Source of the DNA: Deltaproteobacteria bacterium
GTDB taxonomy: Bacteria; Desulfobacterota; GWC2-55-46; UBA9637
Reading direction: 5' to 3'
Length of the DNA stretch: 61,054 bases
Assembly: GCA_016219285.1 (NCBI GenBank)
Contig: JACRNJ010000038.1
Span: 1 to 61,054, forward strand
Shown here piece after piece: positions 27,853-44,723 of this stretch. How positions within the stretch are numbered: the first letter of the stretch is position 1; the number at the start of each line of letters is the position of its first letter. A program made the position numbers and the translations under genes. A model generated the notes under the pieces. It did no database searches. It was given only the letters and a program-made list of their open reading frames with translations, and was not told the DNA's origin.

Positions 27853-30453
27853 CTATAAAAAGCAAGCCCTGAATTCATCTTCAAATTCGGTTTTCTTGAA
27901 CGCCTCATTATAGAAAGGCATTCCCCATACAGTGTATTTCTTTGATTTCCATAACACACTTATCTGATGCTTCTCTTTTAACGATTTCAGAAATTTCTCT
28001 TTCCATTCGTCATATTTCAGCAAGTGTTCGCCTTTCGGTTCAATGAACACTTGATAGTGCAGTGAAATATCCGAATCTTTCTTTTTGAGAAATAGAACAA
28101 AGTCAGGCTCAATCGGTTGACCGTCATCAAAGTCATAAATCTGGAAATGCCGCTCATTGCGGACAAGGAAGATTTCACCCCACTTCAATTTCAAGGCGTC
28201 ATAAGTTTTATCAATGAATTTTATAAGGTATTTTTCCTCGGAGGTCCCGTAATTTTCTTTGAAGGCATACCATTCTTTACCGCTCAAATCTAATTGGAGC
28301 GCTGTGTTTGATGCCTGACTTTGAGGAACCCCATACTCCTGATCGCCTCCTTCTTTCACAAAAATATTCAATGTCTTATCCTTGAATATCTTTGAAACAG
28401 GATTGGGTAAGAATTCCGGCGTCCCTTGATATTCTACTTTATCGGATTCAAGGCTTTGACTGATTTTATCAAGAATAGAAACCGTGATTTTCAGCTTTTC
28501 ATTTGGCGTCAATGAGGCAATCTGCCCTTCCTCTCCCTCCACTTCTACTCTTATCTTTTTGAGATAACTCTCAGAAGGAATAAACTCATGAATAGATTTA
28601 ACATTTGGGAGAAAAGATTTTAGATTGTGAAACCTGTAAAACTCCAGTTTTGCGATTGCTTTTTTTATTACATTAAAGCCGAAGTCTTCAAGCATATAAT
28701 CTCTTTGCTTTGTCTTTTTGGAAGAAGATGCGACATTATCAAATATTGCCGTTGATTCAACCGCGCCTGAAAACAAGTTCACATGAAAGATATGCTCTTT
28801 AATGGTATTTGGCAAAGCAGAAAGACCGGAGCGGTCATACTTAATCTGTTTATTCAGGAAAATAAGCCCGTTCTTATAAAAATCAGACTCTTTAAAATCC
28901 ATTTTCAATTCAAGCTGAATTTCCTTTGTCTCTTTAGCCTTTATGCCTATTTCCTGAAGCGCGGTATTCAACTCCTGAATATATTTTGGATTGTATGCGC
29001 TGTGGTAATAAAGCTCCTCGCAAATGCGGAGTTCGTTCTGAATATCGGAGTCATATTTCCTCTGAAATTTTGGCTGTGTTTGTTCAATCTGAAAAGGACA
29101 ATACCTCGCCCCTCGCCCGATAAGCTGCGCCTCTGATATGGTCGTGTTCCCCGGCTTCCCTGCTTTTGCATCCCGTGTATCATAAAGCCTGACGATATCA
29201 AAGAGGTTGAGGACATCCCACCCTTCGTTCAGTTTATCTACGGCAAAAACCGCGCGGTATTCGTTGTTTTCATTTTCGAGTGTATTGACGGCAATCTGTT
29301 TTTCTTCGCTTTCTTCCTTGCTGTTGACCTCAATACATTTTTCCTTAGAAAAATCGTTCTTCAGTTCTTCAATCAGGTTTTCTACGGTGATACCATTTTC
29401 TTTAAAGTATGCAAAACACCTTTTTAAAGTCGGTTCCGTGCTTTTTTCTATCGCTGCAATATCCGCTCTTTTCAGATTCTTAATCGTGCCTGCAAATTCC
29501 TCGTAAAAACCCTTGCTCTCGGCAATGGTTTTAGACTTGAAGAGGATGACAGGCTTAATTCGCTTTCTATTCTTTTCAAAAACCTTTCTCCGATACTGGC
29601 TTAAGATTAGAGACTGCAATGCCCGCTGAATTAAAGGAACATCGGACTGCAACACCTTGACTTCCTTTGAATAGCCGTCTATGCGGAATTGCTTGAGCGG
29701 ATAATCGCAGAGGATTTTATTGGAATACTTTGAGGTTATTTCCGGCACTGAAAAATCCACTGTCGCAGTAAATTCCAGAAGGATATTTTCAGGATTAGAG
29801 CGGAAAATCCGGCTTACCGTTCCTTCCCATGAAATGATTTCTTCCTGTTCCTCTTTGTTCAGTTTGCCTCTTTTCGTTTCCACGTTGATATGATGCGCCT
29901 CGTCTGAAATGAGGACGATTTTTTTATCCTGAAAGTCATCATAGGTAATAGAGTTTTCACGCGGGGTGTTCAGGCGGGAGTGCAGCCCCTGAATTGTGGA
30001 AAAGGCGATATTTATATCTTCTCCATTGGCAGCCTGAAAATTATCCACTTCTTTAATTGATACTTTTTTACCGCCGAATGCGATAGTCTCGGCAAAAAGA
30101 TATTTAGAAGAAAGCGGATTTAAGAAGTTTTCGCGGGTTTTATTTATAATGTTGGCGCTGTTCACAAAGAACAAAAAGTTCCGGTAGCCCTGTTTGTAAA
30201 GGTGAAGGATTGCCCCCGCCATAATCAGGGTCTTTCCGCTCCCTGTTGCCATGTGAAAAAGTAGCTGCGCGGGCTTTTGCCGGAGCCTGTCGTTGGAAAG
30301 ATAATAGAGAAAACGACCGAAGGCTTGATTTTGATATGGACGAAGTTCAAAAGCCGTATTTAGATTATTTTTTAAATCAAGCGGGACTTCAGGCAAAGAT
30401 ATTCCAGACTGAATATTTGCTGAAATAATCTGCTCAAGAGTTAATGCACTCAT
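27853..30453 (-). CDS. Type III-like restriction subunit (Res): DEAD/DEAH helicase with C-terminal nuclease
   Basis: Superfamily 2 helicase: RPYQNQAF, Walker A HMATGSGKTLIMAG (about 70-83), VLISDEAHHIN, EFTATVDFS, and the second RecA domain ending in TTISEAQLIGRGARYCPF. Near residue 790, EPDFVLFLKKK followed by YQVFIEPKGEHLLKYDEW fits a PD-(D/E)xK nuclease, as in type III Res subunits. I take the ATG at 30453 because it overlaps the HEPN stop as ATGA. A Res subunit normally needs a Mod partner for DNA recognition, but no intact mod lies here (see the remnant at 31150-31299). It may be non-functional or have another role. Confidence 0.87.
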   Translation of the reverse strand: MSALTLEQIISANIQSGISLPEVPLDLKNNLNTAFELRPYQNQAFGRFLYYLSNDRLRQKPAQLLFHMATGSGKTLIMAGAILHLYKQGYRNFLFFVNSANIINKTRENFLNPLSSKYLFAETIAFGGKKVSIKEVDNFQAANGEDINIAFSTIQGLHSRLNTPRENSITYDDFQDKKIVLISDEAHHINVETKRGKLNKEEQEEIISWEGTVSRIFRSNPENILLEFTATVDFSVPEITSKYSNKILCDYPLKQFRIDGYSKEVKVLQSDVPLIQRALQSLILSQYRRKVFEKNRKRIKPVILFKSKTIAESKGFYEEFAGTIKNLKRADIAAIEKSTEPTLKRCFAYFKENGITVENLIEELKNDFSKEKCIEVNSKEESEEKQIAVNTLENENNEYRAVFAVDKLNEGWDVLNLFDIVRLYDTRDAKAGKPGNTTISEAQLIGRGARYCPFQIEQTQPKFQRKYDSDIQNELRICEELYYHSAYNPKYIQELNTALQEIGIKAKETKEIQLELKMDFKESDFYKNGLIFLNKQIKYDRSGLSALPNTIKEHIFHVNLFSGAVESTAIFDNVASSSKKTKQRDYMLEDFGFNVIKKAIAKLEFYRFHNLKSFLPNVKSIHEFIPSESYLKKIRVEVEGEEGQIASLTPNEKLKITVSILDKISQSLESDKVEYQGTPEFLPNPVSKIFKDKTLNIFVKEGGDQEYGVPQSQASNTALQLDLSGKEWYAFKENYGTSEEKYLIKFIDKTYDALKLKWGEIFLVRNERHFQIYDFDDGQPIEPDFVLFLKKKDSDISLHYQVFIEPKGEHLLKYDEWKEKFLKSLKEKHQISVLWKSKKYTVWGMPFYNEAFKKTEFEDEFRACFL

Positions 30454-30839
30454 TTCATCCACTCCAGAACAAAGTCCTTTACTTTCAGGGCGAGGTTATA
30501 TGCTTCCTTCGCTTCTTCAATATCCGGAATATAAAAATCATCAGGATAACGAAATTCCACCGCATATTCCGTCAATATATCCCCAGCTTTCAGAGCCGAA
30601 AATGTCGCATCAAAAGTAATACATGTCAGCACAAGCCTTTCTATCTTATGCGTTTTTTCAGGTTCAATATCTTTGAAAACCAGATATGCCTTTAAGTATT
30701 TCTCTGCCGACTGTTGAGCATGAAAGCAAATAGCATCTGTAACGGGGTTATCGGTTTTCAGGTCTTTACCAGCAATAGTAATATCGTTATCCGCTTTGAT
30801 AATCCATTGTTTAACTTTTTCATTCATCATTTCTGCCAT
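30450..30839 (-). CDS. HEPN-domain protein (toxin of a HEPN/MNT pair)
   Basis: A 129-aa all-helical protein: KADNDITIAGKDL, CFHAQQSAEKYLKAYLVF and YAVEFRYPDDFY are the conserved HEPN blocks. HEPN proteins are typically ribonucleases or their binding partners, controlled by a nucleotidyltransferase that AMPylates them. The gene overlaps the MNT gene upstream by 13 bases and the Res gene downstream by an ATGA, so all three are translationally coupled. Whether it is a toxin or a Res accessory is open. Alternative ATG starts at 30830 and 30827. Confidence 0.85.
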   Translation of the reverse strand: MAEMMNEKVKQWIIKADNDITIAGKDLKTDNPVTDAICFHAQQSAEKYLKAYLVFKDIEPEKTHKIERLVLTCITFDATFSALKAGDILTEYAVEFRYPDDFYIPDIEEAKEAYNLALKVKDFVLEWMK

Positions 30840-31150
30840 ATTATTTTCCCTTCCCTGTTAATAACCCGTGAAAGAGTTGGAGACAGCATATCTGCGGTGT
30901 ACTTCTTTTGATATTTTAATAGAACATCGGCATTGTATCCGGCCAGCGCAATATCCCATCGCAAATCTGCGAGGGTTTTCAGTTTTTCTTTCCGTTCATA
31001 TTCCCTGTTTGTTAGTATTAGAAAATCAATATCGCTTTCCGCCTGCGCATCGCCTCTGGCATAACTTCCAAAAAGAATAACCGCGACAGCGTCCTGTATG
31101 TCCCTGATAATAATATTTTTTATAGCCGTAACATCTTTTTCCGTGTACAT
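30827..31150 (-). CDS. MNT-type minimal nucleotidyltransferase (antitoxin of a HEPN/MNT pair)
   Basis: LFGSYARGDAQAESDIDFLIL is the catalytic GSxxRG...SDIDxxV motif of the polymerase beta-like minimal nucleotidyltransferases. These proteins AMPylate and silence their HEPN partner. Length 107 aa is usual. Its ATG overlaps the stop of the Mod remnant as TAATG, which suggests it once was coupled to mod. The downstream partners are HEPN and Res. Confidence 0.85.
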   Translation of the reverse strand: MYTEKDVTAIKNIIIRDIQDAVAVILFGSYARGDAQAESDIDFLILTNREYERKEKLKTLADLRWDIALAGYNADVLLKYQKKYTADMLSPTLSRVINREGKIIWQK

Positions 31151-31299
31151 TATTTTTCTCCGTAAAATATTCTATTCAGTTTTTTGTCCGTATCCGATAT
31201 TTTATAATCCTCGTCGTCTATCTCGCTGTAATGGACATAAAGTTGATTCTTATCCAGCAATTCTATAAGGAACCGCCTTTGCTCGTCATTTATTTTGTC
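31150..31299 (-). pseudogene. C-terminal remnant of a type III Mod-like DNA methyltransferase
   Basis: Reading right to left from 31299, a 49-codon frame without a start codon encodes DEQRRFLIELLDKNQLYVHY and then SEIDDEDYKISDTDKKLNRI and FYGEK, stopping at TAA. This wording closely matches what I recall of the extreme C-terminus of adenine-specific Mod methyltransferases that accompany HrgA and Res. A stop codon directly precedes it, so the catalytic part is missing: the gap between hrgA and MNT is only ~140 bases. This is best read as an internal deletion of mod. Identification rests on motif memory. Confidence 0.5.
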
Positions 31300-32249
31300 T
31301 TATTTCTAATTTCCTTAATATGGTTTTCTGGGTTTTCAACTACTGAGTCATATTCGGATTTATGAATTCTTTTTGATTCAAAGTCAATTTTTACATCCTG
31401 AATAAACCTTTGAAAATCCGTATTTTGTTCACAGAGCTTATTCATTGTTTCCCAATCAAGATAAGGTTTTATTCTGGCTGGGAAAAGCACAGATGACGAA
31501 TCAAAATCGTCTAAATCAATTTTAATAATACCAATGCCAAATGACATTGTTAGTCGTTCAAGTTCAGCTAAAAGGTCATCGTCTTCCGTTATATCGGCAG
31601 CAATCAAATATCCTTCATTTGCCCATGACGAGTTAGATACAGCTTGAAAATATGACTCTCTATAATTCGAACGATTGAGCGATTTTTTTACTTCAAAAGA
31701 AAATATTTTTAAAACATTGTTATCTGATATTCGATTAAATTCTATTAAATGAGGATTCCAGTCATCTAAAGGCAGATAGAAACCAACTAAATCTGGATGG
31801 ACCCATTCATTTAAACCTGTTTTCTTTGATTTTTCATGGTAAATGGTTTTGGTAAAAATGTTCCTGCCTCGATTAAATGACGGATTTGCGTAAGCGAAAT
31901 ATGTAACCAAAGGATGTAAGTCTCTTTCGTCAAAATGATCCTTTTCTTTTTTTGGCTTTAAATCCTCACGTGTAATTATTTGCTCAATGTTTTTGGGTAA
32001 TTCATGAATTCTTGATTTGAGAAAAAACTTCGCAGGATTTTTACCTACTTTTACAAATATTGACTTTTCATTATCTTTGACGTCAACATATAAACGAGCG
32101 CCTAAAGTTTGCCAAGGAGTTTTCCCAGAGATTCGTACCTTACTATGTAAATTATGCTCATTGCCTTTTTCCCATATCTCCTGATATGTCAGAGGCTTAT
32201 CCGATGTCTTTAGAATATCTTCAGCAAGATTTAAAAAAGTATATATCAT
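31290..32249 (-). CDS. hrgA: HrgA-like restriction-associated protein (HARE-HTH plus nuclease-like domain)
   Basis: The N-terminal ~75 residues (LNLAEDILKTSDKPLTYQEI, TPWQTLGARLYVDVKDN) form a HARE-HTH winged helix, common in restriction enzymes and chromatin proteins. The C-terminal part (LHPLVTYFAYANPSF, EWVHPDLVGFYLPLDDW, KIFSFEVKKSLNRSNYRESY) has the D...ExK arrangement of a PD-(D/E)xK nuclease fold. This is the architecture of HrgA, named in Helicobacter. Here it heads the minus-strand Mod(remnant)-MNT-HEPN-Res cluster. 319 aa, apparently intact. Confidence 0.8.
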   Translation of the reverse strand: MIYTFLNLAEDILKTSDKPLTYQEIWEKGNEHNLHSKVRISGKTPWQTLGARLYVDVKDNEKSIFVKVGKNPAKFFLKSRIHELPKNIEQIITREDLKPKKEKDHFDERDLHPLVTYFAYANPSFNRGRNIFTKTIYHEKSKKTGLNEWVHPDLVGFYLPLDDWNPHLIEFNRISDNNVLKIFSFEVKKSLNRSNYRESYFQAVSNSSWANEGYLIAADITEDDDLLAELERLTMSFGIGIIKIDLDDFDSSSVLFPARIKPYLDWETMNKLCEQNTDFQRFIQDVKIDFESKRIHKSEYDSVVENPENHIKEIRNKTK

Positions 32250-32309
32250 GCTTCCTCCGTTTTTCCTGTATTATAGTACAAAATAGCTTTGTTTTCAGAA
32301 AACCTGACT

Positions 32310-32412
32310 GATTTATTTTCACCTCACCTCTCGCAATCCCAACCCCTTTACCCTTCACCGTCCCTGCGGAACCTCTCCCCTCAGCCCTTCTATCTTCCTC
32401 ATCCGGCGGGCA
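32310..32412 (-). repeat. Toxin-antitoxin array repeat, copy 1
   Basis: Core shared with the copies at 33136, 34702 and 35480: CAATCCCAACCCCTTTACCC, TTCACCGTCCCTGCGGAACC, CAGCCCTTCTATCTTCCTCA, TCCGGCGGGC, preceded by ATTTATT and CCTCACC. It lies between hrgA and the first toxin-antitoxin pair. Confidence 0.85.
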
Positions 32413-32465
32413 TTGCCTACCCTACTATTGACCTCTTCCATCATCGTTTCCGCATTTGGCAGGGT

Positions 32466-32759
32466 TCAGATATAGACAACTTCCCTCAACACCATCTTCC
32501 TTATCTCTGGCTTTAAAGCCCGTTTCATCACCAGATCGACATTTGCATCAAGAAGGTCGGAAAGGTAGTTTTTTAAATGGACAAACGATATCAGATCGGT
32601 AGCCTTCTGGAATTCTATAAGTACATCAATATCGCTTGTGTCTTTTTGTTCTCCGGCAACGCAAGAACCAAAGAGACCTATTTCGCTGATGCCATACTCT
32701 TCTTTTAATTCGTTCTTATGCTCTTTTAAAATTCTTTTCAGGTCTTCAACCTTTTTCAT
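32466..32759 (-). CDS. mntA: MNT-type nucleotidyltransferase antitoxin (MntA-like)
   Basis: IGLFGSCVAGEQKDTSDIDVLIEF carries the minimal nucleotidyltransferase motif; the second Arg/Gly of the usual GSxARG is replaced by VAGEQ, a tolerable variant. Length 97 aa. It overlaps the hepT-like gene by 14 bases and is flanked by array repeats 1 and 2. In this family MntA tri-AMPylates HepT to neutralise it. Confidence 0.85.
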   Translation of the reverse strand: MKKVEDLKRILKEHKNELKEEYGISEIGLFGSCVAGEQKDTSDIDVLIEFQKATDLISFVHLKNYLSDLLDANVDLVMKRALKPEIRKMVLREVVYI

Positions 32760-33102
32760 TGCCTGTCTCCTTTAGCACTTTTTCTATAAGGGGCTTGATT
32801 TGCGATATCTTCTCCGTTACAGTCAACCACACAGTTTCAATGTCAACACCAAAATAAGCATGAATCAGGACATCCCTCATGCCAGCCATATCTTGCCAGG
32901 GGACACCCGTATATTTCTGACGGAGATTGTCCGGCACATGCTTTGTCGCTTCGCCTATAACTTCTAATGCCCTTATGACAGCATAGGCTGTCTTATCGTC
33001 ATTTTGAAAGACTTCATAGTCCATGCTGCCGACAAAACCTTGGGCCTTGTTCATAGCATCCAGTATATCTTGAAGATAATCCTTGTAACTCCGATCTACC
33101 AT
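32746..33102 (-). CDS. hepT: HepT-like HEPN ribonuclease toxin
   Basis: DYLQDILDAMNKAQGFV at the N-terminus, AYAVIRALEVIGEATKHVPD in the middle and MRDVLIHAYFGVDIETVW near residue 85 are the HepT signature; RDVLIHAY holds the R-x4-6-H catalytic pair of HEPN RNases and the tyrosine modified by MntA. 118 aa. The gene is upstream of, and overlaps, its MNT partner, the usual order toxin then antitoxin. Confidence 0.88.
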   Translation of the reverse strand: MVDRSYKDYLQDILDAMNKAQGFVGSMDYEVFQNDDKTAYAVIRALEVIGEATKHVPDNLRQKYTGVPWQDMAGMRDVLIHAYFGVDIETVWLTVTEKISQIKPLIEKVLKETGNEKG

Positions 33103-33135
33103 ATAACCTCATTGATCTTAGAAAAAATGGGTCTG

Positions 33136-33238
33136 ATTTTTCCCCTCCACCCCTCGCAATCCCAACCCCTTTATCCTTCACCGTCCCTGCGGAACATCTT
33201 CCAGCAGCCCTTCTATCTCTCTCATCCGGTGGGCTATG
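33136..33238 (-). repeat. Toxin-antitoxin array repeat, copy 2
   Basis: Same core as copy 1 (CAATCCCAACCCCTTTATCC, TTCACCGTCCCTGCGGAAC, CAGCCCTTCTATCTCTCTCA, TCCGGTGGGC) in the same orientation, with ATTTTTCCCCTCCACC at its left edge. Confidence 0.85.
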
Positions 33239-33255
33239 ACAGCCTTTCTGGCACC

Positions 33256-33807
33256 TCACGCCAGACCTAACTTTTCCATCAGCCTTTCGAGCCTTTTATC
33301 AACTCTTGCCCTCTTTGCCAGATTACGCAATCTTTTTAAATCATACTCGGCTTCGACTAAAAGCTTTGATGCATCTGCGATGTCTTGAAAGCTACCCGCC
33401 TTCAGCTTAAGCGCTATCAAACCTTCCGGCCTGACCAGAGGAATGGAGACGCCCTTCAACACCTCAACCGCCATGCCTTCTTTAACTATCTCCGCTTCCC
33501 ATTTCCTGATTGCAAATATTATATCAACAGGAACCTCTTCAGTTGATATGGCCTTTATGCAGAATTTTATATCATCTTCCGGGCCTCCTATTTCGAGGCT
33601 TCCTTTAAAACCTGATGTTAAGAGCTTCTTCAGGACTTCTTCAATTGTGGAGCGGTTAGTAACAGATAAATCAGCCAGTATATCTATGTCCTTTGTCGCC
33701 CTTGGCGCAACCCAGCCGCCGACAGCCAACCCGCCTATAAGGGCATACGCTTTTACGTCTCCGGTATGTCCAAGAATTTTGATTATCTCTTTGAGGGTCT
33801 TTTCCAT
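33256..33807 (-). CDS. AbiEii-like nucleotidyltransferase
   Basis: ALIGGLAVGGWVAPRATKDIDILAD is a nucleotidyltransferase signature of the type found in AbiEii/MenT and MJ1435-like toxins: GG..V, R.T.DID. VPVDIIFAIRKWE and IPLVRPEGLIALKLKAGSFQDIADASKLL follow, as in that family. 183 aa. It overlaps the next upstream gene by 25 bases, forming a pair. Whether it is toxin (tRNA-modifying) or antitoxin cannot be read from sequence. Confidence 0.8.
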   Translation of the reverse strand: MEKTLKEIIKILGHTGDVKAYALIGGLAVGGWVAPRATKDIDILADLSVTNRSTIEEVLKKLLTSGFKGSLEIGGPEDDIKFCIKAISTEEVPVDIIFAIRKWEAEIVKEGMAVEVLKGVSIPLVRPEGLIALKLKAGSFQDIADASKLLVEAEYDLKRLRNLAKRARVDKRLERLMEKLGLA

Positions 33808-33971
33808 ACGAGTTCTTCCGAAAGCCGGATGGACTCTTTAAGTCTTTCGGCTACTGTTTTCCGGGTAACAGACTTTAGCAGCACATCAATCCTTACTCCT
33901 TTTCTGTCAGGAAATAATTCATCATAGATGCTCATAATCTCATCAAAACCTAACACCTTGCTTTTTCTCAT
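33783..33971 (-). CDS. Small partner of the nucleotidyltransferase (62 aa)
   Basis: A charged, probably helical protein, MRKSKVLGFDEIMSIYDELF and so on, ending ELVWKRPSKR. No recognised motif. It is upstream of and overlaps the nucleotidyltransferase by 25 bases, so it is probably the other half of a two-gene toxin-antitoxin module. Its function is inferred only from position. Confidence 0.6.
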   Translation of the reverse strand: MRKSKVLGFDEIMSIYDELFPDRKGVRIDVLLKSVTRKTVAERLKESIRLSEELVWKRPSKR

Positions 33972-33985
33972 ATTTACACCTTATC

Positions 33986-34408
33986 TTAATTTAATCCCTT
34001 AAATATCCTGACACCGCACTTTAGCGCGGCCCTTCTTAATGCCTTGTCCTGTGTGGCTATGGGCGCGCCTTCGCGCATGGCAAGCTCAAGATATGATGCA
34101 TCGTAAGAGGACAACTTATGCTCTCTGGCAAGCTGAAGAGTTTCGGAAAGGGCATGCCTTGAGGTTTGAACATCCACGTGGATGGGCAAAGAGCCGAGCA
34201 GGCTGATAAACCGCGCCGCCCTTGCCTCAGTGCTTCTGCCTCTCCTTTCGGATACGATGAGCGTATTTGCAACCTCAAGAGGCCATACCGATGGCACGAT
34301 ACATTCATATTTGCCGAGACTTTCCAGAACGGCTTCCGTGTAGGAACTCGCCTCATCTTCAAAATACCATGCCATAACCACGGAATTGTCTATAACCAGC
34401 GATTTCAC
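33986..34408 (-). CDS. vapC: VapC-family PIN-domain toxin
   Basis: PIN-domain ribonuclease with acidic metal ligands in LVIDNSVVMAWYFED (Asp6), WPLEVANTL (Glu), LSSYDASYLELAMR (Asp) and PIATQDKALRRAA (Asp). 140 aa, normal. It overlaps the Phd-like antitoxin gene by four bases (ATGA-type) in the expected antitoxin-then-toxin order on the minus strand. Confidence 0.92.
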   Translation of the reverse strand: MKSLVIDNSVVMAWYFEDEASSYTEAVLESLGKYECIVPSVWPLEVANTLIVSERRGRSTEARAARFISLLGSLPIHVDVQTSRHALSETLQLAREHKLSSYDASYLELAMREGAPIATQDKALRRAALKCGVRIFKGLN

Positions 34409-34632
34409 CTGCGCCCCTCTTCGATCATCTTCCTGATGGTTATGCCGCTCGTGTATCCTTTATTAAACCGCTTCAACTCATCTATAACTGTCCGCAAATC
34501 TTTCTTTTTGGGAGGCTCCACCGGAACCAGCAGGGCTATGGGCGAGCCGTGTTTGGTAATGGTGTATTGTTCTCCTTTTTTGACCCTCTCCAGTATTTGA
34601 GCCAAATGGGTCTTGGCTTCGTAAGCGCTCAT
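34405..34632 (-). CDS. Phd/YefM-family antitoxin
   Basis: SAYEAKTHLAQILERVKKGE and YTITKHGSPIALLVP are the DNA-binding fold of Phd/YefM antitoxins. The C-terminal LRTVIDELKRFNKGYTSGIT probably wraps the PIN toxin. 75 aa. It should repress its own operon and neutralise VapC. Confidence 0.9.
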   Translation of the reverse strand: MSAYEAKTHLAQILERVKKGEQYTITKHGSPIALLVPVEPPKKKDLRTVIDELKRFNKGYTSGITIRKMIEEGRR

Positions 34633-34701
34633 AAAGCATCCGCTTATGCAATCCGTAAGAAATGAGGGACATCCATGATAAGCAGGGGGAAAGGCGACTG
34701 C

Positions 34702-34803
34702 TTTATTCCCCTCACCCTCGTCACCCCAACCCCTTTACCCTTCACCATCCCTGCGGAACCTTTCTACCAGCCTTTCCATCTTCCTCATCCGGCAAGCACA
34801 GTC
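34702..34803 (-). repeat. Toxin-antitoxin array repeat, copy 3
   Basis: CCCCAACCCCTTTACCC, TTCACCATCCCTGCGGAACC, CAGCCTTTCCATCTTCCTCA and TCCGGCAAGC match the other copies in the same orientation, with TTTATTCCCCTCACCC at the left edge. Confidence 0.85.
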
Positions 34804-34821
34804 CATCCTACGCCGCTGCTT

Positions 34822-35207
34822 TTAAATGACAGGAAGGATTCCAGATGTTGCTATTTCTTCGTCTTCTGTAAGTATGCTTACTTCCTCTCTCAATATATTC
34901 TTGTAAACAAGACCTGTCCCAACTATCAAAGCATCGTGGATATTGAGGCTGTCAGGCATCTTTTCAACAATGTCTTCGTCCACAGGGTAAACAACGCAGT
35001 TTCAGATTCACTGAGGTATTCTAAAACCATATCGAAATCTATATTGATACGTTTGATTGAAATGAGGCGCTTGATATCTGCAAGCACAATGGCGGGAAAG
35101 ACAAAGTTGTTGCCTTTGTTTATAAGAATTTGACGGCGCTGCGGCTTTAATCTATTGTTCTTATCTAAAAACCATATAAGTATATGGGTGTCAACAATAT
35201 AGGTCAT
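34822..35207 (-). pseudogene. PIN-domain toxin gene broken by a frameshift
   Basis: The first ~80 codons encode a PIN start: YIVDTHILIWFLDKN, VFPAIVLADIKRLIS and YLSESETALF. The frame then shifts near 34985; in the next frame the protein continues PVDEDIVEKMPDSLNIHDAL, GTGLVYKNI, VSILTEDEEI and stops at TAA (34822-34824). The C-terminal half, with the catalytic Asp residues of HDAL and TEDEE, is therefore out of frame. It overlaps its probable antitoxin by four bases. Either a real inactivation or a sequencing error. Confidence 0.75.
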
Positions 35208-35392
35208 ATCTTGTTCTTAAAGGAGTATTCATATTTTTTGATCTCTTCAAGAGATATATCCATTTTACCCTCATAGACTCCATATAAATCCGATAAGAAC
35301 TTTCCTTTTTTAGGAGCAATAATTTTCGACTTCAGCGCCTTCAATTGCTGCTCCAGACTTTCAATCTGCAGTTTCATTACTGCTTCTTTCAT
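35204..35392 (-). CDS. Putative antitoxin of the adjacent PIN toxin
   Basis: 62 residues: MKLQIESLEQQLKALKSK is a coiled-coil-like stretch and LYGVYEGKMDISLEEIKKYE the C-terminal part. LYG.YEG..D.S.EEI is a pattern that I recall from antitoxins paired with PIN proteins. Four-base overlap with the PIN gene and AAGGAGGTC upstream. An internal ATG 18 bases downstream is an alternative start. Confidence 0.7.
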   Translation of the reverse strand: MKEAVMKLQIESLEQQLKALKSKIIAPKKGKFLSDLYGVYEGKMDISLEEIKKYEYSFKNKI

Positions 35393-35479
35393 AAAACAGA
35401 CCTCCTTACTTGCTGCTTTATAAATTCTATATCATAATATTGGCTTATTCTATAGCTAAAAAAGAAAGGCGAGCCAGAT

Positions 35480-35578
35480 TTATTCCTCTCACCCCTTGCA
35501 ATCCCAACCCCTTTACCCTTCACCGTCCCTGTTGAACCTCTCCACAGCCCTTCTATCTCTCTCATCCTGTGGCAAGGC
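35480..35578 (-). repeat. Toxin-antitoxin array repeat, copy 4
   Basis: CAATCCCAACCCCTTTACCC, TTCACCGTCCCTGTTGAACC, CAGCCCTTCTATCTCTCTCA and TCCTGTGGCAAGG, preceded by ATTTATTCCTCTCACC. It ends four bases before the stop codon of the next gene. Confidence 0.85.
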
Positions 35579-35581
35579 AGC

Positions 35582-35884
35582 TTATTTTTTATAATTCCTC
35601 AATATCCTCTCCCTATCTTCACTTTCCTTATCCACCTTATAATAAATCTCAATAAACTCTATCCAGTCCTCTTCTCCGTGATATGCATAGATGACCCTTA
35701 TCCACGATTGCACACCCTTCCCTTTCAGCGCCTTGCAGGCTAATTTATTGGCTTTGTATATTTTCGTGGAATGGATGCCACCGATAGAAACATTCGAGGG
35801 CAAGCCAAGATTGGATATGTGAAAAATAGCCCCGCTGTCAATATTTTGCTTGTGAAAGGCATTGAGAGCAACCTTTATAAACAT
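35582..35884 (-). CDS. Possible orphan RelE/HigB-like toxin (100 aa)
   Basis: The C-terminal half, RVIYAYHGEEDWIEFIEIY and KVDKESEDRERI, resembles the final strand and helix of RelE-like mRNA interferases in pattern only. The N-terminal part (KVALNAFHKQNIDSGAIFH) is not diagnostic. The frame is open upstream for ~16 codons without a start, so the 5' end may be truncated; I chose the ATG at 35884. No antitoxin gene lies upstream, where a plus-strand promoter starts. Confidence 0.45.
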   Translation of the reverse strand: MFIKVALNAFHKQNIDSGAIFHISNLGLPSNVSIGGIHSTKIYKANKLACKALKGKGVQSWIRVIYAYHGEEDWIEFIEIYYKVDKESEDRERILRNYKK

Positions 35885-35930
35885 TCGCAAATCCTCTGCG
35901 AGCGATGAGAACCGCTTAATTAATTTTCAA

Positions 35931-35958
35931 TTGACAATAAAAAAATTTCGTGTATATT
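35931..35958 (+). promoter_or_regulatory. Candidate promoter of the long DksA-like gene
   Basis: TTGACA (35931-35936) and TATATT (35953-35958) are 16 bases apart, 12 bases before the ATG at 35971, giving a very short leader. Confidence 0.55.
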
Positions 35959-35970
35959 ACATAACCCATT

Positions 35971-36573
35971 ATGGCGAACTCAAAGAAAAAGAAACTAAAG
36001 GTAGAAACAAAGAAAGTTGCAACAAAAATAAAAAAGGCTAAACCTATGAGCAACTCAAGGGGCAAACAAAAAAACATTGCAAGAAAAAGCAGTGAAAAAT
36101 CCACTGTCAAAGTTTTGCCAAAGCATACGCCGCCTGCCAACCTCAGACCGAAGGGGTCTTTTAAAAAAGAAATTACAAAAAAACTTCTAAAGGCCAAAGA
36201 AGAGCTGCTGGCAGAAGTAGCTGAAAAGATAAAGAATGAGAGCAATTCTCTTAAATTAGAGATTGGTGATATTTACGACATTGCAAGCAATGAGAGGGAT
36301 AGAGAATTAACCCTCATACTTGGCGACAGAGACAGGGAAAAGCTGGCAGAGATAGAAGAAGCCCTTATACGTATTGAAAATGGAAGTTACGGGCTTTGCG
36401 ATGAATGCGGCGAATCTATAACCGAAGGAAGGCTTATGGCCATGCCTTTTACAAAAGTCTGCATAGATTGCAAATCAAAAGATGAAAGAGAAAAAGGCGC
36501 CAGAAAACGGTATGAGGAAGAACATGGGCTGCCCATGCTGGAAAAGACAGAAGTCGAAGAAGAAGAATTTTAA
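35971..36573 (+). CDS. DksA/TraR-type zinc-finger protein with lysine-rich N-terminal tail
   Basis: Residues about 110-185 form the DksA-type coiled coil and zinc finger: ERDRELTLILGDRDREKLAE, ALIRIENGSYGLCDECGESI and VCIDCKSKDE (CxxC...CxxC). The first ~65 residues are a basic low-complexity tail (KKKKLKVETKKVATKIKKAK, then KQKNIARKSSEKSTVK) not found in ordinary DksA; it could bind nucleic acid. Such proteins bind the RNA polymerase secondary channel or act as regulators. A second, short relative lies at 60261-60629. Confidence 0.85.
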   Translation: MANSKKKKLKVETKKVATKIKKAKPMSNSRGKQKNIARKSSEKSTVKVLPKHTPPANLRPKGSFKKEITKKLLKAKEELLAEVAEKIKNESNSLKLEIGDIYDIASNERDRELTLILGDRDREKLAEIEEALIRIENGSYGLCDECGESITEGRLMAMPFTKVCIDCKSKDEREKGARKRYEEEHGLPMLEKTEVEEEEF

Positions 36574-36729
36574 CTGCGGTTGGAAACCTTTCAATCTTAA
36601 AATTTGAACCATTATTGCATTTTTACAAACCCGTTTGAGTTTACTGTTGAAAGCACAATATTGTATCTCTCTCTAATTTGGGAACCTCCCTTTCTAACGA
36701 AGTAAATCTATCTAAACCCATTTTCATTC

Positions 36730-37779
36730 ATGAGCAATCACAAAAAGAATAGCGATAAGAAGGCGCTTACTATTGCAATAACCGTGCTGGTTTTTACAAT
36801 TACCGCAATAGCTATTTATAACAAAAAACCTTCGGAGATAAAATATACCAGAACCCTTATGGGGACTATTATAGAGATTACTCTTGTGGGCGATGATGAG
36901 GTAAGATTGAACAGGGCGGCAGAGGCTGCGTTTGATGAGATTAAAAGGTTTGAAAATATAATGAGCTATTACAAAAAGGATAGCGATGTTGACAGGATAA
37001 ATGCATCGGCAGGAAAAAAGGCTGCGGCAATTTCCAATGAAACGCTTGAGGTAATAGAAACATCCCTGAATGTATCTCGAATTACAAACGGCGCATTTGA
37101 TATAACCATGGGCGTCTTGGGAAAGGTCTGGCATTTTACAAAAGATGATAAAGGAGAACTGACTACACCATCCACCAAAGAGGTTAAAAGGCTTCTTCCG
37201 CTTATAGATTTTCATAGTATAATAGTTGATAAAAAAAATTCTACGGTCAAACTGGCAAAACAGGGAATGAAGATAAACCTTGGCGGCATTGCAAAAGGGT
37301 ATATCATTGGCAGGGCAGCTGAGGTATTAAAGAAACTTGGCATTAAAAGAGGGATTATACATGCGGGCGGCGATATGGCGATGTTTAATGAACCGGCCAG
37401 CGCTCCATGGCTTATAGGCATTCAGGACCCGCGCAATAAGGATAAGATTATTGGCGCCGTCAAAGTTTCTAATAAAGCAGTCAGCACATCAGGCGATTAC
37501 GAACGATTTTTTATAAAAGACGGCAAGAGATACCACCACATCATGGACCCGGCCACCGGTTTTCCAGCCAACAAATCAATGGCTGTGACAATTGTAGCAG
37601 ATGACCCAACTACTGCAGATGCCCTATCAACCGCAGTATTTATAATGGGGCCAGATAAAGGCATGAAGCTGATTCAAGAACTTCCTGTTGTGGAAGGATT
37701 GATAATAGGGGCGGATGGGAAGGTAACAATATCTTCTGGCCTAAAGGGGAAGGTGGACATTTTTGAAAAACAAAACTGA
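36730..37779 (+). CDS. apbE: FAD:protein FMN transferase ApbE
   Basis: ApbE attaches FMN covalently to threonine of flavoproteins such as RnfG/NqrC. Visible blocks: MGTIIEITLVGDD, GAFDITMGVLGKVWHF, KINLGGIAKGYIIGRAAEVL, IIHAGGDMAMF and HHIMDPATGFPANKSMAVT with the Mg2+ ligands. An N-terminal hydrophobic segment (LTIAITVLVFTITAIAI) anchors it to the inner membrane, facing the periplasm; there is no lipobox cysteine. The 3' end overlaps the next frame by 17 bases. Confidence 0.92.
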   Translation: MSNHKKNSDKKALTIAITVLVFTITAIAIYNKKPSEIKYTRTLMGTIIEITLVGDDEVRLNRAAEAAFDEIKRFENIMSYYKKDSDVDRINASAGKKAAAISNETLEVIETSLNVSRITNGAFDITMGVLGKVWHFTKDDKGELTTPSTKEVKRLLPLIDFHSIIVDKKNSTVKLAKQGMKINLGGIAKGYIIGRAAEVLKKLGIKRGIIHAGGDMAMFNEPASAPWLIGIQDPRNKDKIIGAVKVSNKAVSTSGDYERFFIKDGKRYHHIMDPATGFPANKSMAVTIVADDPTTADALSTAVFIMGPDKGMKLIQELPVVEGLIIGADGKVTISSGLKGKVDIFEKQN

Positions 37780-38191
37780 AAACTTGCCTCTCATGTTTCA
37801 GGATAGGGTGGAAGAATTTAAAAACAAGCCTGCCCTTTTAAAGCAGGATAAATATATAAAGGATGTCGTCATTTTTGGCGATAAAAAACCTCATCTTGTT
37901 GCCCTGATAGTTCCAGAACTGGAAAGATTAAAGGAATATTGCAATGGTATGAAAATTTCATATGATAATGATAAAGAACTGATAAATGACAGAAGGATTT
38001 ACAGGTTTTATGAAGATATAATCCACAAGATGCTAAAGGATTTGGCAAGATTTGAGCAGATAAGAAGATTTGCCCTGATACCCGAATTTACACAAGATGC
38101 CGGCGAACTTACCCCCACCTTGAAGATAAAAAGACAGGTTGTGGAGGAAAAGTATAAAGATGTTGTAGATGAATTGTATGCTGCATTGTAG
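37763..38191 (+). pseudogene. Internally deleted long-chain acyl-CoA synthetase
   Basis: The first ~27 residues (NLPLMFQDRVEEFKNKPALL) match the extreme N-terminus of AMP-forming acyl-CoA ligases. Without a frameshift the sequence continues DKYIKDVVIFGDKKPHLVAL, IVPELERLKEY, MLKDLARFEQIRRFALIPE and GELTPTLKIKRQVVEEKY, the C-terminal domain. The central ~430-470 residues, including the P-loop and adenylation core, are missing. The 142-aa frame is intact, but such a protein could not activate a fatty acid. Either a clean in-frame deletion or an assembly collapse. Confidence 0.75.
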
Positions 38192-38198
38192 GCTGAAC

Positions 38199-38335
38199 CC
38201 AAAAACATTGATTTTTGGGACAAACCCTCACGAGCCATTGGCTCACAAAGGAGGATGAAAATAGTAGGGTGGGCTTTGCCCACCATTACAAAGGACAATG
38301 TTTACGATGGGCACAGCCCACCCTACGAGTCTATA
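38199..38335. repeat. Hairpin repeats in the gap before the nicotinate phosphoribosyltransferase
   Basis: CCCAAAAACATTGATTTTTGGG (in two arms of about 8) is followed by GTAGGGTGGGCTTTGCCCAC at 38264-38284, whose outer arms pair with GTGGGC-type sequence at 38307-38329 (GGGCACAGCCCACCCTAC). Two independent hairpin families lie side by side. Confidence 0.65.
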
Positions 38336-38380
38336 CAAATCAATAGGTTATAAATGTATTTTCGGAGTAAACCAATGTTT

Positions 38381-39570
38381 TTATTTAACCGGCAATAACG
38401 ATACGTTCCCAAGCTGCTTTACAACATGCTCCCTGAGAGCCTTTGGCTTTGGCAACTTTCTTACAACCTTTCCTTTGTGAATCAATGGCTGCAAAAGTCC
38501 TTGGTAATTTCCACCGCAAGCGCATTTCTTGTTCCCAATCTCCTGCTTGGGAACACCTTTTAAAGGAGCGATTTTGTCATTGCCGCATTTTCTGCACCTG
38601 AGAATATCTTTTGCGCCTGACCATTTGCCCCTCTTTGCCATGGGCTTGCCTTGTATCTCCATTATATCCATTGCAAAGTCCACAACCGGCGCATTGCTTA
38701 TGCATGTGCCAACGCCAAAGGCATCTACTAATGGTTTAAGCTCCATAACCTCCTTTTCATCAAGCCCGCCGCTGGCAAAGAGCTTTACATCTTTAAATCC
38801 GCGCAAATCCAGCTCCCAACGCACCTCTTCAAAGATGCGGTAGAAATTTCCCCTCCTTGACGCAGGTGTATCAAGCCTTACTGCATAGAGCCTTCCCTTC
38901 ATTGCCTCTGCAACACGGATTGCCTCAAATTTTTCATCATTAAATGTATCAATGAGCGCAACCCGTTTCACCTTTTTATCTATCACTTCATCAAATGCCT
39001 TTATCGCTTCAACAGTATCTCCGAGAATCAGTATCAGGGCATGAGGCATGGTGCCCATCGGGTCCGTCTCAATAAGCTCTGCGCTTAAAATAACTGCAAC
39101 TCCGTCGCACCCGCCTATGTATGCGGCGCGTTCTATCATTGGCGCAACCGCAGGGTGCATCCTGCGGTTGCGCCAAAGCTCACCACCATCCTTTCGCCGG
39201 CAGCAAGCCTTATCCGCGCCGCCTTTGTTGCAACACCTGTTGCCTGACATATAAGCCCGAGCATGGCTGTTTCAAACACAGAAAAATCCGTATACATCCC
39301 CTCTATCTCCATAACAGGCTCAAAGGGTTTGAAGATAGCGCCTTCGTTAAATGTTCGGATATTTACAGGTTTTCCTTGCATTAAATAAGCAACCTCTTCT
39401 ATGCCAGCCAGCACAGCCCACTGCCAGTCATTAGGAAGATTTTTTGCAAAAAACTCAGCCCTTACCCATTTATCAATACCTTTTTTATTAAGTATCTCTA
39501 CGGTTCTGGCAAAATATACATCAGTTGTTTTGCCAGATTTTATATCCTTTGGGTCTGCTATATGGAACAT
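38381..39570 (-). pseudogene. pncB: Nicotinate phosphoribosyltransferase, frameshifted
   Basis: The upstream frame encodes HIADPKDIKSGKTTDVYFAR, WAVLAGIEEVAYLMQGKP, SVFETAMLGLICQATGVATK and AGERMVVSFGA. The downstream frame continues RRMHPAVAPMIERAAYIGGC, DTFNDEKFEAIRVAEAM, LFASGGLDEKEVMELKPLVD and a C-terminal cysteine cluster (CRKCGNDKI, KKCACGGNYQ). One missing base near 39160, inside a palindrome (GGCGCAACCGCAGG against CCTGCGGTTGCGCC), separates them. The enzyme makes nicotinate mononucleotide for NAD salvage. ATG 39570 with GGGAGG is the likely start. The indel may be a sequencing error at the hairpin. Confidence 0.85.
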
Positions 39571-39582
39571 AAGGCCTCCCAT

Positions 39583-39971
39583 ATAATATCTGTCGTCTAA
39601 AAAATAAAACCTTTCCTTTTAAATCAGAATAATATCTCTTTGCATATAAACTCAATCAGTTTCTTAACTTCATCTCTTTTCTTTGTATCTGTAACATCAG
39701 TCTATTGCCTTATTTATCTTTTCCAATCTCTTTAGGTTTCGGTTATTTCCCATTGCTTGCTAATGATATGTCTGCAAATGTCATATTCGTATCAAACTGT
39801 TTGTATCCCATCCTTATCCCCTTTTTTGAGATGTGTTTTGGGAATTATTATAACAGAATTATGCGTGATTTTGTCAAGTGGTTTCAATGATTTACCTTAA
39901 AACGTTGGAAATGTGTTGAAAAAATTGCGGTAGTGATATATTCTGATTAGTATAAAAACGGTATATTTTAT
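39583..39971. other. Intergenic region between divergent genes
   Basis: About 390 AT-rich bases hold no convincing gene. Minus-strand promoter candidate at 39847-39877. Toward the right end, GATATATT (about 39931-39938) and a TTGAAA upstream could serve the U32 gene. No repeats recognised. Confidence 0.5.
39847..39877 (-). promoter_or_regulatory. Candidate promoter of the nicotinate phosphoribosyltransferase gene
   Basis: On the minus strand, TTGACA (39877-39872) is followed after 19 bases by TATAAT (39852-39847). Both boxes are perfect but the spacer is two bases longer than ideal. Confidence 0.4.
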
Positions 39972-40973
39972 ATGAAAAAAATAGAGCTTATCTGCCCGGC
40001 AGGAAATCTTCCTTCATTAAAGGCCGCAATTGACAACGGCGCCGATGTAGTTTACACAGGGTTTAACGACGCCACCAATGCCCGCAATTTTGAGGGGCTG
40101 AATTTTACCCACGATGAATTGAGACAAGGCATTGATTATGCCAACAAGCTGGGAAAAAAGGTTTATCTTGCGGTCAACACATTTCCGCAGATGGATACTT
40201 ATCAGCAGTGGTATAAATCTGTTGACAATGCAATTAAATTAAATGCAGATGCCATTATCATTGCAAATCTTGGCATATTAAAATATGCAAGGGATAAATA
40301 TCCTCATGTAAATATCCATCTGAGCGTTCAGGCAAGCAGCTCAAATTACGAATCCATAAATTTCTACAAAAAACACTTTGGCATAAAAAGGGTAGTTTTG
40401 CCAAGGGTTCTGACCGTGCGCGCGATCAAGGACTTAAGAGCCAAGACAGATGTAGAACTTGAGGTGTTTGCCCTGGGAGGGCTATGCATAAACATAGAGG
40501 GGAGGTGTTATCTTTCCAGCTTTGTTACCGGCGCATCGACTAATACGGAAGGCGCATGCTCGCCATCAAGATTTGTGAGATTTATAAACCAAGACAAAAA
40601 GCTCAAGATTACTTTAAATGATGTTGTTTTAAATGAACTCGGACAAGATGAAACCTCGCCATATCCCACCTGCTGTAAAGGCCGTTATGTTACCGAGTCC
40701 GGCGAATACAGCTATGCCTTTGAAGAACCTGAATCTCTGAATATCCTTGAAATAATTCCAAGGATAATAGACGCAGACGTTGATGCCTTGAAGATCGAAG
40801 GCCGACAAAGGACAAAGGCATATGTGGCTGCCATGACAAAGGTCATGAGGGAAGCAGTAGATTCATACTACGCAAACCCAGATGGCTTTAGGGTTAAACA
40901 AGACTGGCTACTGAAGACAAATGCTACTTTTGAGGGAAGTAAACCGGCGCTGGGGTGCTATGTGGAGAAATAA
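39972..40973 (+). CDS. ubiU: U32-family protein, UbiU-like
   Basis: Starts KKIELICPAGNLPSLKAAID; ADVVYTGFNDATNARNF and IHLSVQASSSNYESINFY follow. Cysteines in GGLCINIEGRCYLSSF and YPTCCKGRYV give the four-cysteine pattern that binds a 4Fe-4S cluster in UbiU, the anaerobic ubiquinone hydroxylation factor, and in the related U32 proteins RlhA and TrhP. UbiU acts with UbiV, which is not adjacent here, so tRNA/rRNA hydroxylation or another quinone-related role remains possible. 333 aa matches UbiU. Confidence 0.8.
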   Translation: MKKIELICPAGNLPSLKAAIDNGADVVYTGFNDATNARNFEGLNFTHDELRQGIDYANKLGKKVYLAVNTFPQMDTYQQWYKSVDNAIKLNADAIIIANLGILKYARDKYPHVNIHLSVQASSSNYESINFYKKHFGIKRVVLPRVLTVRAIKDLRAKTDVELEVFALGGLCINIEGRCYLSSFVTGASTNTEGACSPSRFVRFINQDKKLKITLNDVVLNELGQDETSPYPTCCKGRYVTESGEYSYAFEEPESLNILEIIPRIIDADVDALKIEGRQRTKAYVAAMTKVMREAVDSYYANPDGFRVKQDWLLKTNATFEGSKPALGCYVEK

Positions 40974-41038
40974 AAAACAATAAGTCGTAAGAATCTTGTC
41001 CTTTATCTTGTTTGTTAGGCCTGTCCCGGTTAAGCAGA

Positions 41039-41773
41039 ATGGAAAATTTCTCTCTCATTTCAAGTCTAAAATCCATGCTTATTCTCTTTACGTTATTATT
41101 ATTTGCAGGATGCGCATCTCGTCCGCCTCAGGGGTATTATACAAAGCAAGGAACTCAAAGGGCATATCAAATTGACGGCAAGTGGTACTCTCCCGTTGAT
41201 TCATCAGATGGGTATGAAGAAGAGGGAATTGCATCATGGTATGGCAAGGACTTTCACGGCAAAAAGACCTCAAATGGAGAAACCTATAACATGTATGCCA
41301 TGACTGCCGCCCACAAGACTCTTCCCCTGAACACCTATGTAAAGGTCACAAGGCTTGATAATGGAAAAGAGGCCATTGTCAGGGTCAATGACAGGGGGCC
41401 TTTTGTGAAAGGGAGGATTATTGACCTTTCTTACAAAGCAGCCTCGGAAGTGGGCATTGCAGAGAGCGGCACTGCCAAAGTTAAGATAGCAGCTCTTGGA
41501 GATACTGTTGGGGATAAGCTTGTAACAAAGGATTACCAAAAAGGGAACTTTATGGTGCAGGTAGGCGCATTCACGGTAAAATCCAATGCAATAAATCTGA
41601 GGGGCAGCCTGCTTAAGCGCTACAGCAATGTTTCAATAACCGAATACAACAGGGGCGATATGATTTTTTACAGGGTCAGGGTTGGCGGAGCAGCCGTTTT
41701 GAAAGAGGCTGAAAGGCTTAAAAACAGGATAGAAGCACAAGGGGTGGGGCCTACTTTCGTGGTAGCGGATTAA
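41039..41773 (+). CDS. rlpA: RlpA-like lipoprotein (septal lytic transglycosylase with SPOR domain)
   Basis: A lipoprotein signal with lipobox LLLFAGC is followed by the double-psi beta-barrel: [36 protein letters not shown] and [18 protein letters not shown], holding the catalytic His and Asp of RlpA, which cleaves denuded peptidoglycan at the septum. The C-terminal ~75 residues ([27 protein letters not shown]) are a SPOR domain that targets the septum. I chose the ATG at 41039; a TTG at 41012 extends it by nine residues. Confidence 0.92.
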
Positions 41774-42729
41774 GGATGGAGATTCCCATATCCATTCAAC
41801 ATTAACCTTATCTCCCAGTTTCTCAAATTCCTTATCGCCGGTAACCATCGGATAATCCATGCGCAGCGCAAGGGCAGCGGCAAAACAATTGCCAAAGGCT
41901 ATGGCATGGTTTGCCTTGAATTGCGCCGCCTGATACGCGATGCCTTTGTCTACATCAACCAACCCGATGGGCAATTGTTCCATGATAAGCAAAGCCTCCT
42001 CCGCCTTTTCTTTTCCCTTGGAGCGATACAGAGAATAGTAGACCTCGCCCCAGTTGATAATGCTCATAGCAAGGCGGATTCTGCCGTTTTCAGCCTGCTC
42101 CAGAATCCGCTCCACTTTTGCCGCCCCGGCTTCATCCTCAAAATCTTTCAAGCCCCTGAAAATTTCATTCGCCTTTGAGTAGTATCTGTAAGAATCATCT
42201 GTCCTGCCTAACACCCGCGATGCGCCCCCAAGACCGCATAGGCAATAGCCAATGCCTGATGTATCTTTCATGGCTGTAAATCTGCTTATCGCCTGCTTAA
42301 ATGTTTGTATGGCCTTTTCCAAATCCCCCTTTATCCTGTAAGCCCTGCCTTTGCCCAGAGCAGAAAGGCAAGCCCTGCCTTATCCTTTGCTATTTCATAG
42401 ATGCGCTGGCTCTTGGCAAATATACTTAAGACTTGCTTATGTCTTCCAATACCCCGCAAAGTGAGACCGAGGCCGACCAGAGAATCTGCGGCAAGGCCTT
42501 TATCGGAAACGGCAATGGCAATTTTATGGGTGTGCTCGTAGCTTTTTTTCGCCTTCTCATACGCCACAACCATTCTGTAACAGTCTCCAAGGGCAAGAAG
42601 ACATGACAGTTGTGCACTGGTAAAAGGATTGCTTAACTCCTTTGCTTTAATATACAGGTCTATTGCTTCATTGAATTGAGAGGCTTATCTTCTTTTCTCA
42701 GCCTGCTGAAATGTTTGTGTAAAATTCAT
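41633..42729 (-). pseudogene. Decayed TPR protein fused to a PIN-domain toxin remnant
   Basis: From ATG 42729 (GGAGGATAAAT upstream) the frame reads MNFTQTFQQAEKRR and meets a TAA, then continues in frame ASQFNEAIDLYIKAKELSN, LLALGDCYRMVVAYEKAK, a TPR series. A frameshift near 42350 is followed by GKGRAYRIKGDLEKAIQTFK and further TPRs. After EIFRGLKD the sequence becomes a PIN domain lacking its first strand: EAGAAKVERILEQAENGRIR, MSIINWGEVYYSLYRS, HAIAFGNCFAAALAL, MVTGDKEFEKLG. Past VEWIW the frame runs antisense into rlpA, so the native stop is lost. Confidence 0.7.
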
Positions 42730-42892
42730 ATTTATCCTCCAAAATTATAGTCTACAATCAAACCAATCCACCGCTTTTAGACTAAGACTTTTAGACTAAG
42801 AACCTATAGACTTTTTGCCTGTTTTCAGATAGCTTATATAAGACGCAAAAAATTTGCAATTATTTTAATGTATCACAATACATTTCCGCTTT

Positions 42893-44590
42893 ATGATAAA
42901 ACAAAAAGAGACCTCCCTGCCTGTGCAGACAGGTAAAAAGAAAACCTCCAACGGCGGCAACCTCGGCTTTGAGGAAAAGCTCTGGCAGGCTGCGGATAAG
43001 ATGCGTGGACATATGGATCCCGCAGAGTATAAGCATGTAGTCCTTGGTCTCATATTTCTCAAATACATCTCCGATGCCTTTGAAGAAAGGCGCAGACAGT
43101 TGGAATCATCGGCAAAAGACCCATCAAGCGAATACTATGTTAAAGACCCTGAGGCAAGGTATGGCATTGTAGAAGATAGGGATGAATATCTCTCTGAGAA
43201 TATCTTCTGGGTTCCAAAAGATGCCCGTTGGACATATCTTCAGGCGAATGCCAAACAGCCTACCATAGGCAAAATCATTGATGATGCAATGGTTGTTATT
43301 GAGAAAGAAAATCCAAAATTAAAAGGTGTCCTGCCAAAAGATTATGCTCGCCCTACCCTTGATAAACATACCCTCGGCGAACTCATAGACCTTATTGCAA
43401 CAATCGGGCTCGGCGATGCAGAAAGCCGTTCAAAGGATATTCTTGGCCGTGTGTATGAATATTTTCTTGGCCGCTTTGCATCAGCAGAGGGCAAGGGCGG
43501 TGGTGAATTCTATACCCCTCAATCGGTCGTAAAAATCCTTGTTGAAATGATAGAGCCATACAAAGGCAGGGTGTATGACCCTTGCTGCGGCTCAGGCGGT
43601 ATGTTTGTCCAGTCAGAAAAATTTGTAGAAGCCCATGGCGGCAGAAAAGGCGATATTTCCATATATGGTCAGGAATCCAACCCTACAACATGGCGCCTCT
43701 GCAATATGAACCTTGCTATAAGAGGAATTGAAGGCAATATCGGTCATCACCACGCAGATACATTCAGGCAGGACATTCAAAAAGACCTTAGGGCAGACTT
43801 CATCCTTGCAAATCCACCTTTTAATGTAAGCGACTGGAAAGGGGAATTACTCAGAGACGATGTGCGATGGAAATATGGCGCTCCACCAGTGGGCAATGCC
43901 AATTTTGCATGGGTTCAGCACTTCATACATCATCTCTCGCCAAACGGCATTGCAGGCTTTGTCCTTGCAAATGGCTCTATGTCTTCAAACCAGTCAGGGG
44001 AAGGAGAAATCCGCAAAAATATAATTGAGGCTGATTTGGTTGACTGCATGGTAGCCCTGCCTGGCCAACTTTTCTATACAACGCCGATTCCTGCCTGTCT
44101 CTGGTTTATCACACGGAATAAGAAAAACAGCAGGTTTAGAGACCGAAGGGGAGAAACTTTATTCATAGACGCTCGCAAGATGGGGCATTTGATAGATAGA
44201 ACCCACAGGGAATTTTCTGATGATGAGATAAAAAGAATTGCACAGACTTATCACTCATGGCGCTCATCAACTTCTCTTCACACTGCTGGAGAGGGCACCG
44301 AAAAAGCACCCTCTCCCCTTGCGGGAGAGGGTTGGGGTGAGGGGTATATTTACAAAGACATCCCCGGCTTCTGCAAAAGTGCTAATATTGAAGAAATCCG
44401 CTCCCACGGTTATGTCCTCACACCCGGAAGATATGTGGGCGCTGAAGACATAGAAGAAGACGATGAGCCATTTAATGAGAAAATGAAGCGGCTGACAGCA
44501 AAATTGGAAGAAGAGTTTGCAGAAAGTGTAAAACTTGAGGGGTTGATAAGGGCTAATCTTCACAATTTATTTAAAAAAGAGGTGTTGTGA
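42893..44590 (+). CDS. hsdM: Type I restriction-modification methyltransferase subunit HsdM
   Basis: N6-adenine methyltransferase: [20 protein letters not shown] leads into the catalytic domain, with the SAM motif [18 protein letters not shown] and the catalytic [12 protein letters not shown]. The N-terminal helical domain ([37 protein letters not shown]) is standard. With HsdS it recognises and methylates DNA, and with HsdR it cleaves unmodified DNA. At 44293-44345 an in-frame GC palindrome insert encodes [16 protein letters not shown] before a C-terminal helical region. 565 aa. Confidence 0.95.
44293..44345. repeat. GC-rich palindromic insert in hsdM
   Basis: CCCTCTCCCCTTGCGGGAGA with GGGTTGGGGTGAGGG following: CTCTCCC pairs with GGGAGAG. 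It is in frame, of the same family as inserts in cbiG and hsdR. Confidence 0.75.
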
Positions 44591-44680
44591 CAAGTTGAAT
44601 GGACACAACTTGCTTTGTGTAAAGTGAAATTAGGTTTTACTTTACACAAAATATAGGTGGTCACAGTTTGTGACCACTTG
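44590..44680. repeat. Three successive inverted repeats upstream of the ORF6N gene
   Basis: CAAGTTG/CAACTTG (44590-44611), TTTGTGTAAAGT/ACTTTACACAAA (44614-44650) and GTGGTCACA/TGTGACCAC (44657-44677). All are perfect arms. The third resembles a palindrome inside the next gene. They may be operators or hairpins ending hsdM. Confidence 0.7.
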
Positions 44681-44723
44681 TTAGCCTGAGGGCAACCAAT
44701 ATTTAACCGGAAATGGAGGGCAG

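Follow-up and report, generated by a model that had tools for sequence, protein, structure and literature searches.

The 142-codon open reading frame (the ‘stub’) that follows apbE in the window, the whole 61,054-nucleotide stretch of a Deltaproteobacteria bacterium contig analyzed here, is very probably a recent deletion pseudogene of a long-chain acyl-CoA synthetase gene, and it is probably non-functional. The stub starts with TTG, overlaps the 3’ end of apbE by 17 bp, and fuses in frame the first ~26 residues of the synthetase to the last ~116 (Table 1). Pfam detected AMP-binding_C_3 (PF23562) in the stub and nothing else, and in particular no AMP-binding core (PF00501), which is present in the orthologue from G004, a genome of the same genus. 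The PF23562 match spans profile positions 21–122 of 124, versus 2–122 in the intact G004 ligase, and the C-terminal part of the stub corresponds to positions 471–583 of the 585-position FadD11 ligase model of NCBIfam. The stub has lost the adenylation core and the hinge, and its C-terminal domain lacks the first part. The preliminary description had presented the gene as an acyl-CoA synthetase reduced to its two ends and overlapping apbE, and both points are borne out, residues 1–26 being the N-terminus and residues ~27–142 the C-terminus of the enzyme. Its statement that the product contains only the mobile C-terminal domain differs in one detail from what is seen, in that this domain is itself truncated, with the hinge and its first part gone. 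Rfam gave no matches across positions 30000–45000 of the window.

Table 1 Coordinates of the stub, its parts, and the adjoining genes in the window.
Feature	Positions	Strand	Basis or remark
apbE (FAD:protein FMN transferase)	36730..37779	+	ORF; PF02424, E = 5.7e-90; gene order as in G004
Acyl-CoA synthetase stub, 142 aa, in-frame internal deletion	37763..38191	+	ORF, Pfam, protein and DNA comparison with G004
Stub N-terminal piece, codons 1–26	37763..37840	+	TTG start shared with the intact G004 gene
Deletion-junction zone, opening with the shared CCCTT; 1,326 bp absent relative to G004	37833..37852	+	
Stub C-terminal piece, truncated AMP-binding_C_3, ELTPTLKIKR segment kept	37841..38191	+	Pfam, alignment
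pncB (nicotinate phosphoribosyltransferase), convergent, broken into two ORFs by a frameshift at 39141–39174	38381..39582	-	Neighbor, outside the stub

In G004, an intact ligase of 584 aa (counted from the TTG start of an open frame of 586 codons, and 442 more than in the stub) occupies the same position after apbE with the same start and the same overlap, and pncB adjoins it on the opposite strand as in the window. This FadD11-like protein (contig C67, PF00501 and PF23562) matches stub residues 1–30 at 63% identity and residues 24–142 at 87%, whereas the stub is without 442 internal codons, with which the entire PF00501 core and also the hinge are gone. The intact same-genus orthologue polarizes the loss of the core as a deletion, in agreement with the earlier claim that the ATP-binding core was removed without a frame break.

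Matches to the stub were found in 19 of the 59 genomes searched, the window’s own genome (G000) included, hence in 18 relatives, of which G004 is the closest. A ligase at the apbE–pncB locus was seen only in the lineage of G000 and G004: apbE and pncB are convergent with no ligase between them in G005, G006, and G007 (contig C41), G001 and G003 have no ligase after apbE and carry 900–916-aa proteins with the same domains elsewhere, and in G002 (62% complete) neither the stub nor apbE has a match. Separately, apbE and pncB are each present twice in G007, and its locus on contig C39 (L032) is nearly identical to the G003 locus L026, pointing to C39 as contamination from a G003-like species.

When the DNA of the stub is aligned with G004, similarity is good up to about CCTGCCCTTTTAA, is interrupted by one large gap, and is good again from TATATAAAGG; the missing segment is exactly 442 codons, or 1,326 bp. 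The G004 copies of the two break ends, CCCTTTTAAG and CCCTTCTGCG, share CCCTT flush with the break and are identical at 7 of 10 positions, and two breakpoints drawn at random in this gene have flush homology of 5 bp or more in 0.6% of cases. The two repeat copies lie 1,326 bp apart in G004, a multiple of three, and hence in the same codon phase, so recombination between them preserves the frame and the open ORF calls for no special explanation. The shared repeat is observed, and from it we infer that the deletion probably arose by slippage (slipped mispairing) or by microhomology end-joining. Deletions between short direct repeats can give rise to bacterial pseudogenes, and the stub likewise reflects one deletion, specific to its lineage and seen in one species only, at a place where a short sequence is shared. 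It differs from such cases in that repeats in the same codon phase kept its frame, and is otherwise ordinary. A hairpin-like match at 37829–37847, a possible trigger of the deletion, is a consensus match (two terminator-like sites found versus 0.8 expected) and was set aside.

Taken together, these comparisons suggest the following course of events. The ancestor carried, as G004 shows, an intact synthetase gene of ~584 codons between apbE and pncB that overlapped the end of apbE; a single deletion, of ~1,326 bp by comparison, then took out its middle; and the ends were probably joined where the ALL and TLL codons carry short sequences that resemble each other, with the frame surviving. From what is known of the family, a product without the adenylation core and the hinge would not be able to act as an acyl-CoA synthetase. 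Translation of the stub from the conserved TTG start may nonetheless continue.

The apparent deletion could also be a collapse or misjoin in the assembly, with the true genome carrying a full-length gene, since this is a draft genome (2.28 Mb in 84 contigs, 99.16% complete) and the pncB frameshift nearby, at a perfect hairpin, could be an artefact too. We consider this very improbable. Homology of 5–7 bases is too short to mislead assemblers that work with k-mers or overlaps, and the break ends share only CCCTT and scattered matches (7 of 10), about 5–7 identical bases. Moreover, no second or orphan copy of the ligase core was found in the 2.28 Mb assembly by the PF00501 search, whose single match is a 644-aa gene on contig C4, or with the full G004 protein, which matched the two stub ends and this C4 paralogue and nothing else. 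Elsewhere in the genome, then, the gene has no intact copy.

The neighboring pncB carries a +2 frameshift, which breaks the gene precisely where a perfect 14-bp inverted repeat encloses a 6-base loop, and the damage to this second gene was counted in favor of the pseudogene reading. At the frameshift site, all seven aligned loci of relatives (of nine main matches) are 2 bp shorter and their repeat is imperfect; the frameshift resembles either a quasipalindrome template-switch mutation or an artefact of the assembly. The interval from the stub to pncB contains, at 38264–38330, a further inverted repeat, TAGGGTGGGC...GCCCACCCTA, each arm of which occurs once in the window.

The C-terminal piece has no stop codon, differs from G004 at 11 of 112 residues, and has a dN/dS of 0.145 (dS 0.32, dN 0.046), compared with 0.21 for apbE (dS 0.47, dN 0.099). 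We simulated a branch of which a fraction f was unconstrained, under eight settings (dS of 0.32 or 0.47, each with omega of 0.05, 0.10, 0.145, or 0.21), and recorded the probability of 11 or fewer differences with no stop. At f = 0.3 this was 0.158 (dS 0.32, omega 0.05), 0.043 (dS 0.32, omega 0.10), and at most 0.013 in the remaining six settings, and at f = 0.5 it was at most 0.005 in all eight. Unconstrained evolution over more than about 20–30% of the branch is therefore unlikely under most of the settings tried, implying that the pseudogene, if it is one, must be young. The remnant appears to carry the mark of purifying selection, a pattern which, coming from one genome, would fit either a recent deletion or a constrained product. 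The replaced residues that could be assigned, polarized by eye with an outgroup, fall about three on the stub branch and two on the G004 branch, a sample too small to decide the matter and taken from an alignment of 16 proteins in which G025 and G020 were ignored as mis-chosen frames. At 37973–38032, a run of 20 stub codons has no synonymous change relative to G004, while the adjacent blocks have dS of 0.25–0.67; this sample is small as well. A young deletion would be expected to be polymorphic, and the assembly might show the deleted allele of a population in which other cells keep the gene; we regard such a mixture of strains as extremely unlikely, and the assembly contains no full-length allele or core fragment.

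The preliminary description had proposed a rare, stable mini-protein that could still interact with partners. A truncated C-terminal domain kept by selection might bind, for example, CoA, AMP, or an apbE-linked partner, and the open frame, the low dN/dS of the C-terminal piece, and the apbE overlap conserved in G004 are in keeping with this; nevertheless, we judge it very unlikely, as the same dN/dS is expected if the gene was intact over most of the branch, and the hinge and the first 20 positions of the PF23562 profile are gone. A structure model built with 13 sequences (mean pLDDT 76.8, pTM 0.71) folds residues ~21–110 with good confidence, and in the PDB it best matches adenylation domains from carboxylic acid reductases (E = 2.1e-5 and 2.8e-4), two results that also speak for a mini-protein. 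Residues 1–18 and 112–121 have a pLDDT below 50, however, and the latter lie in the ELTPTLKIKR stretch. A PDB sequence search with the stub alone gave no match at E ≤ 0.01. The model indicates that the remnant could fold, but folding is no evidence of function.

The same fusion of N- and C-terminal ends, which the preliminary description had advised looking for in relatives, was not confirmed a second time among 59 relatives, 63 genomes of the class, and 395 of the phylum (own genome counted in each). The stub had matches in 19 of the class genomes and in at least 227 of the phylum genomes. Among the phylum matches listed, four frames besides the stub were shorter than 250 aa; three (G189, G304, G343) run into contig ends and the fourth (G093) is a frameshift split, leaving no short form in another species among these matches. 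The G093 synthetase (contig C41, split into 371 and 240 aa) resembles the stub in having the C-terminal domain at the end of a short ORF, but its core is still encoded just upstream whereas that of the stub is deleted. G037 has a 208-aa frame near a contig start; frames of 313 aa in G018 (a weak match), 321 aa in G317, 343 aa in G038, and 409 aa in G324 also occur, lying beyond the four that were checked. A scan of genome contigs with the stub returned a single distant relative, and among the titles and abstract openings found in literature searches none mentioned a fusion of this kind. A recent deletion is more likely than constraint on the product, because the catalytic parts are missing, a pathway enzyme is missing (see below), and there is no confirmed second example. 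For the proposal of a stable, interacting protein we found no positive support, and it is hardly to be expected that the deletion made a new, selected 142-aa protein that is translated with ApbE and has a role other than fatty-acid activation.

A similar deletion had also been reported for mod in the same stretch. It was not found: no PF01555 (N6_N4 methylase) match at E ≤ 0.1 is present on the contig, in a search that a core-less mod would escape. The window does contain a type I HsdM/S/R set and, on the minus strand at 27853–34632, a ResIII protein (27853–30462) followed by a toxin-antitoxin-type run of HEPN with an MntA-like protein, a nucleotidyltransferase with HepT, an AbiEii-like protein, and PIN with Phd/YefM.

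The pathway enzyme in question is acyl-CoA dehydrogenase (PF00441), which acts next after the ligase in fatty-acid degradation and for which the 99%-complete G000 gave no match, whereas six of the seven other genomes of the family have one to three (all six at least 82% complete; the exception is 62% complete). No other FadD-type ligase was found in the G000 assembly, and a 436-aa PF00501 protein of G004 is absent from it. The gene was probably free to go in a lineage that would no longer degrade fatty acids. However, in the sister family of the same order (G008–G010), all three genomes lack the dehydrogenase and all three keep a ligase of the stub’s type, implying no tight link between the two losses, and the connection between them in G000 is suggestive only.

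The stub is also a warning for automatic annotation, in which an in-frame deletion can look like a domain-only gene. Apart from this and from what it says about fatty-acid use, the case is ordinary gene decay. As a very probable pseudogene, it would record one step by which a bacterial lineage loses the use of fatty acids, with an ancestor-like intact allele in the sister species.
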